Virus record (IMG/VR): IMGVR_UViG_3300017726_000096
Coordinates: 1 to 22,578 of that record
Direction: 5' to 3' (one strand)
Length of the DNA stretch: 22,578 bases
DNA from: a virus
Position 1 is the first letter of the stretch; each line of letters opens with the position of its first letter. Position numbers and translations under genes: made by a program. Positions 601 to 19,530 of the stretch are shown here, piece after piece. The notes beneath the pieces were generated by a model. The model made no database searches. It was not told the DNA's origin and worked only from the letters and a program-made list of their open reading frames with translations.

Positions 601-724
601 AGCACGCAAAAATAACAAAGCGTGCTATACTAAAGAGGAAGTTTTATACGCAAAACTCCTGAAGCGACGTGCCGAAACAATGTTAGAGATCAAACACAAT
701 GTACGGTCATCAGAAAACACTTGA
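557..724 (+). CDS. Small basic hypothetical protein
   Basis: A 55-residue ORF beginning with ATG at 557 inside the end of the previous gene (44-bp overlap) and ending with TGA at 722-724. It is Lys/Arg-rich and predicted helical: MRLKDTIKAAKKIIKARK, then a TKEEVLYAKLLKRRAE segment typical of small phage helical proteins. It fills a stretch that would otherwise be non-coding, and its stop overlaps the TTGACA of the promoter that follows. There is no clear Shine-Dalgarno sequence beyond the AGAGGAAA about 10 bp upstream. No function can be assigned. A shorter version from an internal ATG near 680 is possible. Confidence 0.5.
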   Translation: MRLKDTIKAAKKIIKARKNNKACYTKEEVLYAKLLKRRAETMLEIKHNVRSSENT

Positions 725-754
725 CAAAACTTCGGGATCATGTTAGTATAAATA
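721..754 (+). promoter_or_regulatory. Candidate promoter (TTGACA plus TATAAATA)
   Basis: A perfect sigma70-type -35 box TTGACA (721-726) is followed 18 bp later by TAGTAT (745-750), and 20 bp later by TATAAATA (747-754), which matches the T4-like late promoter core. It lies at the head of a 185-bp gap before the porin-like gene. Either host-type or late phage transcription could start here; the overlap suggests use by both. Confidence 0.55.
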
Positions 755-909
755 CTCGGTGAAGGTGGGACGCCACCCGATTAAGTACTTCCGAATGCCT
801 CAATTACTCGCGCTAGGTTCTTCTTCAATCACCTAACACGATGTCATGTCGAGACATCTATCATCTGCTGACCAAAATTTTAATCAGCAAGTAAAATCTT
901 TTAAACAAA
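755..909 (+). ncRNA. Long hairpin-rich 5' leader, no ORF
   Basis: About 150 bp between the promoter and the porin-like gene contain no credible ORF but four inverted repeats in series: GGTGG/CCACC (764-768 with 773-777, loop GACG), TAGGT/ACCTA (814-818 with 831-835), GATGTC/GACATC (840-845 with 853-858) and TGCTGA/TCAGCA (866-871 with 884-889). The last stem lies 20 bp from the start codon. Other gaps in this window are mostly under 60 bp, so an untranslated leader of this length with this much pairing potential is unusual. It could be a cis-regulatory leader or a separate small RNA; the sequence alone does not decide. Confidence 0.4.
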
Positions 910-1281
910 ATGATCAAATCAACAATCGCAGCACTCGCTGCAACTCCTCTTCTTTTCTCTGGTGCTGCGTTTGCAGGTCCTTACGTTAATGTAGAAGCAA
1001 ACGGTTCTTATCCTGATGGTGCATACACTTCTGGCAACGTTGAATTCCAACTTGGATATGAAGCAGTGACCGATGGCGGTCTTGCTTGGTACGCTTCTGT
1101 AGGACCTACTGTAGGACATTCTGAAGCAACTGATGAGTTCGGTGACACTGAACTTGCAGGATACCTTGGAGCATCTAAGGGAATCAGCGAGAAGGTTTCC
1201 CTTTACGGTGAAGTCTACGGTGTAACTAACGATTCTGACTTTGATATGTCTGGAAAAGTGGGTGCAAAATATACCTTCTAA
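910..1281 (+). CDS. Secreted porin-like small beta-barrel protein
   Basis: A 123-residue protein with a clear Sec signal peptide: MIKSTIAALAATPLLF then SGAAFAG, with likely cleavage after AFA near residue 22. The mature part of ~100 residues is a series of about six alternating polar/hydrophobic strands with aromatic girdle residues (for example YVNVEANGSY, VEFQLGYEAV, VSLYGEVYGV), and it ends in ...KYTF. A C-terminal Phe is the usual signal for outer-membrane insertion by the BAM machinery. This suggests a small outer-membrane barrel made in the host. It is short for an 8-stranded barrel, so oligomerisation or a truncated family member is possible. It has its own promoter and long leader upstream and an intrinsic terminator downstream, so it is a separate transcription unit. 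The role during infection is unknown. Confidence 0.65.
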   Translation: MIKSTIAALAATPLLFSGAAFAGPYVNVEANGSYPDGAYTSGNVEFQLGYEAVTDGGLAWYASVGPTVGHSEATDEFGDTELAGYLGASKGISEKVSLYGEVYGVTNDSDFDMSGKVGAKYTF

Positions 1282-18145: not shown

Positions 18146-19530
18146 GCATAACAAGGTCAGTTGCAGGTGATTGTAGCGTATCTGTTTTTCTTTTTAGAGA
18201 TGGACAACAACTCAAAGCAAAAGATGGAGGAGAAAACTTAGTAGGTTTCCTGAGAGGTTGGGAACTCTATGAGAGTATTGAGTCAGGAACTATCGAAGGT
18301 ACGTTTATCTTTGAAGACTCTGCAGGTATCTCTAACATTTTCAGTGGATCTGAACTCATTAAGTTTCAAGTCAGAGGAACTATTGCTACTAGGACATATT
18401 ATCTAAGAGCATACAATATTAGTAACAGATCAAGAACTGGACAAACTACGGATGTTTTTATCATTCAAGCATGTTCTGATGAGTACATTAAGAACGAAGT
18501 ATCAAATATTTTTGGTAACTCAGAAAAAATATTTAAAGAAACTGAATCATCTGCTATTGTTAAAGATGTAGTTAGGAACACCAAGTATCTTGGAAGTGGT
18601 AAAAAATTATTTGCTGAGGAGAGTCTAAACAAACATAAATTTATCGCACCAAACTGGAGACCCATGGATGCGATCTATTGGATTGCACAGAGATCAATCA
18701 GAAAGAAAAAGACGGGTGGTGGATTCCAGAACGGGTTTACTTTCTTTGAGAATGCAATGGGATACCATTTTAAATCTATCGATGGTATGATTGAAGATAT
18801 TAACAAACAGGATGTAGAAACTAAAACTAATCCATCTACAGGTATAGCAAGACTGTATAAGTATGTCTATTCTGCTAAGAAAATTGATACTGGTGAAGGA
18901 GATCAATTTAAGATTGATAGTGTTAGTTTTCCAGAAGAAAAGAACTTTTTGATGGGTCTGAGACACGGTGCTTGGTCAGGTTACAGCGTTGGATTTGATC
19001 CTGTCACAGTCAATCAATCTAGGTGGGGTGGAGAGAGTTCAGATCTATCAGCAGACATGTACAGGTATAAAGTTTCTGATGCATGGAAGAATATGTCACA
19101 CTTGGGTGGTAAAAATGCAGTAAACCCTATGTCACGACTTGATGACGACTTTAAAAATCTCGTTGACAACCCTAAAAGGGTGCGTTATAGTATACTTCCG
19201 AACCAAATTTTCGATAAGAAAACATCTGCTGGTTCGGCACTCAGTTCGCAGAAAAACTATGAAGCACTCGTAGAGTTGCAAGCATATCAATGGATGCGAA
19301 TGGAAACGATGAAAAACACGAGAGTGCAAGTAGTCGTCCCAGGAAACTTGGATCTATATGGGGGTTACGGAATTCACATTACGTTACCATCTACCGAAAA
19401 ATCTGGAGAGAAAACCAAGATGGATAAACGATTTAGCGGTCGTTATATGATCGTTACAATCGCCCATAAAGGTACTCCCGACAACTTCTCGTCAGAGATG
19501 CTACTAATGAAAGATGGTGTAATCCCCTAA
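18142..19530 (+). CDS. gp27: Baseplate hub subunit gp27
   Basis: A 462-residue protein (T4 gp27: 391). It begins with beta-barrel-type strands (VSVFLFRDGQQL, LYESIESGTIEGTFIFED, GISNIFSGSELIKFQVRG) like the gp27/VgrG hub domain. A conserved APNWRPMDAIYWIAQRS helix near residue 170 and FTFFENAMGYHFKSID follow. Near the end, PGNLDLYGGYGIHITLPS and FSGRYMIVTIAHK are typical of the hub's closing strands. gp27 forms the trimeric adaptor ring holding gp5 and joining the tail tube. The ATG at 18142 overlaps the previous stop (ATGA). The stop overlaps a CTAAATA promoter for cp12. Confidence 0.85.
   Translation: MSITRSVAGDCSVSVFLFRDGQQLKAKDGGENLVGFLRGWELYESIESGTIEGTFIFEDSAGISNIFSGSELIKFQVRGTIATRTYYLRAYNISNRSRTGQTTDVFIIQACSDEYIKNEVSNIFGNSEKIFKETESSAIVKDVVRNTKYLGSGKKLFAEESLNKHKFIAPNWRPMDAIYWIAQRSIRKKKTGGGFQNGFTFFENAMGYHFKSIDGMIEDINKQDVETKTNPSTGIARLYKYVYSAKKIDTGEGDQFKIDSVSFPEEKNFLMGLRHGAWSGYSVGFDPVTVNQSRWGGESSDLSADMYRYKVSDAWKNMSHLGGKNAVNPMSRLDDDFKNLVDNPKRVRYSILPNQIFDKKTSAGSALSSQKNYEALVELQAYQWMRMETMKNTRVQVVVPGNLDLYGGYGIHITLPSTEKSGEKTKMDKRFSGRYMIVTIAHKGTPDNFSSEMLLMKDGVIP

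Follow-up and report, generated by a model that had tools for sequence, protein, structure and literature searches.

The 5′ leader of the Escherichia coli ompA gene is an mRNA stabilizer, with hairpins near its 5′ end and before the start. Transcription attenuators consist of terminator and antiterminator helices, whereas phage translational operators, which act with a repressor, consist of a leader hairpin that lies just upstream of the start codon and has an A left unpaired close to its base. In the available parts of two papers, the RNAs described from cyanophages comprise manA, wcaG, PhotoRC-II, CfrI, the glutamine riboswitch/glnA RNA, and abiF (PMC2864571, PMC9964418). The leader analyzed here, which precedes a phage gene for a predicted outer membrane protein (OMP), resembles manA (RF01745), wcaG, and PhotoRC-II in being a structured 5′ leader RNA of T4-like cyanophages. 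However, manA and wcaG precede genes of several kinds, according to the part of PMC2864571 that is available, while the OMP leader precedes a single gene and has no match in Rfam. It is classed here as a new family within a known kind of RNA, the structured 5′ leader. In a survey of mostly open-access literature on cyanophage leaders and RNA motifs, DUF680, and PhCOG173, no title or abstract opening among the papers listed deals with the OMP leader.

Searches of Rfam 15 at the gathering threshold find no matches in the window, that is, the entire analyzed stretch of 22,578 nucleotides (IMG/VR record IMGVR_UViG_3300017726_000096). The same database yields, in 18 relatives, only manA elsewhere in two loci (L002 and L054) and a tRNA in a third (L086). 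A permissive search of 8 loci to an E value of 0.1 gives no match, and that of window positions 650 to 1000 gives, on the opposite strand, two matches that fall far short of their thresholds, one to a microRNA family and one to a hepatitis C element. The two manA RNAs (positions 447 to 635 of L002 and 130 to 317 of L054) lie approximately 0.9 to 1.2 kb upstream of the OMP gene. Pairing with tRNA arms or with the host RNA Yfr1 was another candidate, dropped after inspection by eye.

By DNA search, the window region is 99.5% identical to Synechococcus phage metaG-MbCM1, a T4-like cyanophage of the family Kyanoviridae. The gene downstream of the leader (positions 910 to 1281, plus strand, like all features described below) belongs to the Phage_OMP family (Pfam ID PF24653; E value of 2.4e-36, 125.1 bits against a gathering score of 27), also matches phrog_417, and is labeled DUF680 in phage records. 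A structure model built from 24 relatives predicts a signal peptide and six strands in 123 amino acids (mean pLDDT, 80.4), and its best fold matches, none of which reaches an E value of 0.001 or lower, are for the most part OmpA-, OprF-, OmpX-, and Ail-type small barrels. Porins are large pore-forming barrels, and by its length, its six modeled strands, and its small-barrel fold matches, this protein does not qualify as one. The family match, structure model, and fold matches thus indicate an OmpA-like small barrel in place of the porin-like protein named in the preliminary description. The gene is nearly absent from cellular genomes. Its three copies in genome_contigs all lie on contigs of metagenome-assembled genomes and are read as phage contigs binned with their hosts; the leaders of two of them (L257 and L259) show the RNA core described below or its visible part, and the third (L258) lacks it.

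According to the available part of PMC6224464, phage S-TIM4 evolved on Synechococcus WH8102 carried 13 different mutations in the OMP gene, at a cumulative frequency of approximately 100%, and many of these were expected to disturb its expression. Because such mutations accumulated in the S-TIM4 populations, expression of this protein can be costly. The leader of S-TIM4 is of the same type as that in the window (DNA match MH512890). The protein is termed nonstructural in the available part of the S-TIM4 study (PMC6224464), and the part available of another paper reports it among the proteins detected by proteomics in S-SZBM1 virions (PMC9146016).

The leader itself occupies positions 755 to 909. 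The promoter region upstream of it (721 to 754) contains a sigma-70-like promoter, TTGACA (721 to 726) and TAGTAT (744 to 749) separated by 17 nt, which matches at 10 of 12 positions, and an overlapping T4-late-type box, TATAAATA (747 to 754), of a type common to the relatives; by sequence, the box marks a putative T4 late promoter upstream of the OMP gene. A sequence scan places an intrinsic terminator after the gene, at 1305 to 1324. The good promoter and the terminator of its own that had been described for this gene are therefore both present, and so are the four inverted repeats in between, two of them with perfect 6-bp stems. The 5′-proximal hairpin (764 to 777) has a 5-bp stem, GGTGG-GACG-CCACC. 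In relatives, the letters of this stem differ and the pairing is kept, as in GGAGG/CCTCC of P-RSM1 and GCGAAG/CTTCGC of P-RSM4. The second hairpin (TAGGT...ACCTA, 5 bp, 814 to 835) is invariant among the close relatives that have it and hence has no comparative support.

The third and fourth repeats form a conserved two-hairpin RNA core at 838 to 891 (covariance model match, 832 to 897), recognized from covariation, the model, and folding. Hairpin A (840 to 858), GATGTC-ATGTCGA-GACATC, has a perfect 6-bp stem and the loop ATGTCGA. It is followed at 862 to 891 by CATC, hairpin B, and AG, with the arms of hairpin B (TGCTGA...TCAGCA, 866 to 871 with 884 to 889) again forming 6 perfect pairs. Invariant columns suggest that A890 can be unpaired, as a bulge, with C865 and G891 pairing below it. 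The remaining 18 nt before the ATG (892 to 909) are A/T-rich and, judging from position in the leaders and predicted openness, would serve as an unpaired ribosome landing zone. Shine-Dalgarno-like letters are missing before the OMP start in the window; they are present at this place in 81 of 108 leaders of the window's type (S-type) and in none of 67 leaders of the other type (P-type).

The conservation of this core was assessed in leaders drawn from scans of viral_contigs (the best 80 loci of each of four scans) and from named phages. After removal of four too-short loci and of L093 (ACG-2014f), which has no start codon at the expected place and no match to the covariance model, the 234 loci, with those identical in the last 90 nt merged, gave 178 leaders; replacement of two near copies of the window (L001 and L088) by the window itself left 177. 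Since they were gathered mostly by OMP gene similarity, these leaders are related, and the tree and the slide controls below cover this kinship in part. The core is present in 175 of the 177 distinct leaders, including the window, the exceptions being podophage P-SSP6 (L092) and L197; among the records read, the gene and its leader occur in phages of 17 named genera. The layout is always hairpin A, CATC, hairpin B, and AG, ending 14 to 27 nt before the ATG in the 175 leaders and 18 nt before it in the window. The loop of hairpin A contains GTCG in 170 of the 175 leaders; it is replaceable, as five leaders have another loop there.

The two hairpins are also seen when RNAalifold is applied to alignment A3, with changes on both sides in 9 of 11 pairs. 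This alignment comprises 54 S-type leaders, the window included, that were chosen by hand because they align cleanly (leaders with a GATCGG-type hairpin A are among those omitted); a further selection kept 121 of the 175 leaders, and alignment A4 consists of 43 P-type leaders. For 12 named pairs in A3, 95.7% of 647 cells are paired, compared to 76.9% in shuffles and at most 57.5% in slid versions, and the covariation score of these pairs is 0.646 versus 0.268. By parsimony on a tree of the 54 OMP proteins, pairing in the core is preserved through 103 double and 15 single changes and is gained or lost in 29, whereas controls with one arm slid have 5 to 13 double changes and 142 to 173 gains or losses of pairing. 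In a structure-blind scan of column pairs by mutual information, the top 8 scores all fall on predicted base pairs. By comparison with relatives, therefore, hairpins A and B are real beyond reasonable doubt. The compensatory changes looked for in related phages are thus found in a conserved structure upstream of a gene. The proposal of an RNA element tied to an envelope gene gains strong support from them for hairpins A and B, whereas the first two of the four hairpins fall outside the conserved core. The triggers suggested along with that proposal, a ligand, temperature, or a host sRNA, are hypothetical.

At the base of hairpin B, 88 of the 175 leaders have a U-A pair, 87 have a C-G pair, and none has a mispair. 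This basal pair switches together with the base after AG, such that U-A goes with U and C-G goes with A; 10 of the 14 changes inferred on the tree for this triplet (window positions 866, 889, and 892; A3 columns 36, 62, and 65) are direct triple swaps. This linked switch is unexplained and might reflect either a base triple or the exchange of a cassette.

Folding of single sequences gives a compatible picture. Hairpins A and B together are more stable than shuffled sequences (z = -2.45, p = 0.02; in a second test, z = -3.30, with none of 200 shuffles as stable), and five S-type leaders folded singly show the same two hairpins. Two shuffle tests of the whole leader show no unusual stability (z = -1.0 and z = -1.24), and in the window neither the first hairpin (z = -1.1) nor the second hairpin (p = 0.056) is significant on its own. 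In 56 of 60 leaders sampled from the 175, the start region is predicted to be more open than that of shuffled sequences. Where a TATAAATA-type box precedes the core by 30 nt or more, as in 58 S-type leaders, the sequence following this box folds more stably than its shuffles (mean z of -2.2), and z is below -1 in 41 of the 58; the corresponding 48-nt stretch in the window shows no extra stability (z = 0.5). Past the start, synonymous variation is reduced in codons 2 to 7 of the OMP gene (913 to 930): in 174 coding sequences, the mean normalized entropy of these 6 codons is 0.34, versus 0.68 for 79 later codons. The nucleic acid constraint may therefore extend beyond the ATG, and these conserved first codons may belong to the RNA element or may reflect an effect on translation start.

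The core is linked to this one gene. A covariance model of the core (R1), for which several of the leaders served as input, was run over 20 whole phage records and has matches in 18 of them, with a true match directly upstream of the OMP gene in 17. The window, itself among the sequences used to build the model, scores 56.4 bits (E value of 1.2e-13). The only match in P-TIM68, at 49,674, is false, as it lies inside a helicase gene; by sequence, the OMP leader of this phage carries a P-type core. No match is found in the P-SSP6 and ACG-2014f records, and second, weak matches in P-SSM7 (167,793; E value of 0.1) and Syn33 (50,288; E value of 0.35), as well as one at 18,820 in the window (E value of 0.46), are taken as chance. 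Patterns covering only hairpin B were also scanned in IMG/VR with no use of the gene, giving at least 120 sites per pattern. Sites with at least 150 nt downstream were testable, which excluded 3 S-type and 9 P-type sites; among the matches listed, the OMP gene lies downstream at 117 of 117 testable sites for the S-type pattern and at 108 of 111 for the P-type pattern, and the three sites that lack it look like unrelated DNA. A second OMP copy in P-SSM2, PSSM2_247 (L094, 1419 to 1775; P-SSM2, 187963 to 189943), is located beside pstS and has no RNA core. The sequence CTTAACCTTCTCTTAG upstream of it fits the Pho-box pattern CTTA-N7-CTTA as quoted in the available part of PMC3037559, so that the RNA leader and the Pho box may be alternative controls of the OMP gene.

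Two types of leader can be distinguished among the 175, 108 of the S-type and 67 of the P-type, the latter exemplified by P-HM1, P-SSM2, P-SSM7, and P-TIM68. P-type leaders contain an extra upstream domain that ends in CCCTGCG, a strand complementary to the 5′ arm of hairpin B, CGCAGG(G); since the upstream strand and hairpin B use the same arm, the two helices are mutually exclusive. In 47 distinct P-type triplets of these strands, the duplexes of the 5′ with the middle strand and of the middle with the 3′ strand are each more stable than all 500 permutations, which leave the ancestry shared by the sequences in place, whereas the outer strands do not pair (499 of 500 permutations are as good or better). 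The upstream strand beats shuffles in all 66 P-type leaders tested and in only 41 of the 108 S-type leaders; in the window, no upstream strand competes for hairpin B (-7.4, against -7.5 for shuffles). A run of U residues follows the shared arm CGCAGG in 62 of the 67 P-type leaders, and one of them (L020) takes the terminator-like form in its predicted fold of lowest energy. Because of the competing helices, the U-run, and this fold, the P-type leader looks like an attenuator, with two mutually exclusive helices of which one is followed by U residues. The window type differs from an attenuator in lacking both the competing strand and the U-run, and it keeps the core without the P-type switch.

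The gap contains two further elements. The conserved block CTCAATTACTCGC (799 to 811), identified by comparison of phage records, lies upstream of a -10-like box in some phages and within the leader in others. With at most one mismatch, it is found at 13 places in 15 phage records, 7 of them adjoining the OMP gene, and in at most a few copies per genome. The candidate CTCAAYTAMTCGC was rejected as a general promoter motif: its 13 occurrences across 15 records, with 7 occurrences beside the OMP gene, show that it is not genome-wide. A short open reading frame, MPQLLALGSSSIT, spans positions 796 to 837, and the equivalent frame in P-RSM4, 36 codons long, extends over the start codon of the OMP gene. 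As a conserved small protein, this candidate was discarded, since the reading frame is not kept among 7 leaders, in which its length differs; no such protein explains the gap.

Taken together, these data make an RNA-level action in cis on the OMP gene the best-supported reading, since the stems swap letters yet continue to pair and their position ahead of the ATG is conserved. Recognition by a factor is favored over a plain stem because the conserved loop and flanks exceed what a stem would need. We tentatively propose, at somewhat less than even confidence, that the leader is a gene-dedicated, cis-acting 5′ untranslated RNA that is read by a factor and sets the expression of the envelope protein. 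The leader would be transcribed, and positions 838 to 891 would fold into two neighboring hairpins. The GTCG loop, the CATC before hairpin B, and the AG after it would then probably be read by a trans-acting phage or host factor, and the presence or absence of this factor would set the mRNA lifetime and the rate of translation from the open, A-rich start 18 nt downstream, resulting in the right dose of a potentially costly outer membrane protein. In P-type leaders, the core would be wired as a switch, with the arm of hairpin B pairing instead with the upstream strand to give a terminator-like helix. With phage translational operators, the leader shares a hairpin just before a single start codon and, close to the base of that hairpin, an unpaired A. 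The absence of the core from L092, L197, and PSSM2_247, the lack of a model match in ACG-2014f (L093), the five leaders with another loop in hairpin A, and the ordinary stability of the whole leader are counterpoints to a factor-read leader, and the conserved letters could instead serve the RNA's own fold.

The main rival, which we consider unlikely, is that the hairpins are a passive stabilizer or spacer that shields the mRNA from host RNase and keeps the start open with no factor involved. The E. coli ompA leader has a similar layout, with hairpins both close to the 5′ end and ahead of the open start of an OmpA-like barrel gene; the OMP leader differs in its conserved loop and flanks. This explanation is consistent with the additional hairpin downstream of the distant promoter box in S-type leaders (z below -1 in 41 of 58), with the open start in 56 of 60 leaders, with the OmpA-like protein, and with the induction of host RNase E in cyanophage-infected Prochlorococcus MED4 given in the available part of PMC9692554. 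A plain shield, however, needs only stems, not the GTCG conserved in 170 of 175 leaders or the CATC and AG flanks, and the restriction of the core to one gene per genome also argues against it. A metabolite-binding riboswitch would account for the competing P-type helices, the upstream strand, and the U-run, with the terminator-like helix as its expression platform, yet it is improbable for a small core that occurs once per genome, always before the same gene, and matches no Rfam riboswitch, the more so as the window type lacks the competing strand.

The same P-type U-run after CGCAGG would terminate a short RNA, as expected if a small RNA released from the leader acted in trans. This idea, already raised in the preliminary description, finds no specific support in the window type, where no U-run follows the core, and the constant placement of the core 14 to 27 nt from the ATG is that of a cis element, which makes it very improbable. 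There is an equally slim chance that the reading frame at 796 to 837 controls the OMP gene as a leader peptide: its first 8 residues are similar in 7 leaders and the P-RSM4 record annotates a 36-residue frame overlapping the OMP start, but in these leaders, among which there are length differences of 2 nt, the frame is 13, 27, 36, or 38 residues long, the block is missing from most S-type and all P-type leaders shown, and the core lies outside the frame. Least probable of all are promoter or operator palindromes acting as DNA; promoters and the block at 799 to 811 do share the gap, but the arms swap letters and stay complementary (103 double changes), as a palindrome read by a protein does not.

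A wider reading, which we regard as speculative and rather doubtful, is that T4-like cyanophages have in common a dedicated RNA sensor ahead of the virus-specific OMP; in Prochlorococcus phages, it would act through the competing terminator-like and hairpin B helices as an on/off switch that reads the state of the host or a protein and decides on remodeling of the infected cell's surface. The core model is ready for use in annotating the OMP leader in metagenomes. The presence of a near-universal leader before one gene in the T4-like ocean cyanophages examined points to an unrecognized control device. Since nearly all of these phages place a folded RNA before the gene of one virus-specific membrane protein, the dose of this protein appears to matter, which fits the repeated disruption of its gene in evolved S-TIM4, as described in the available part of PMC6224464. 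Several described cyanophage RNA motifs have no shown function, and in this group of abundant ocean viruses the OMP leader offers a compact system for the study of posttranscriptional control in cyanophages.
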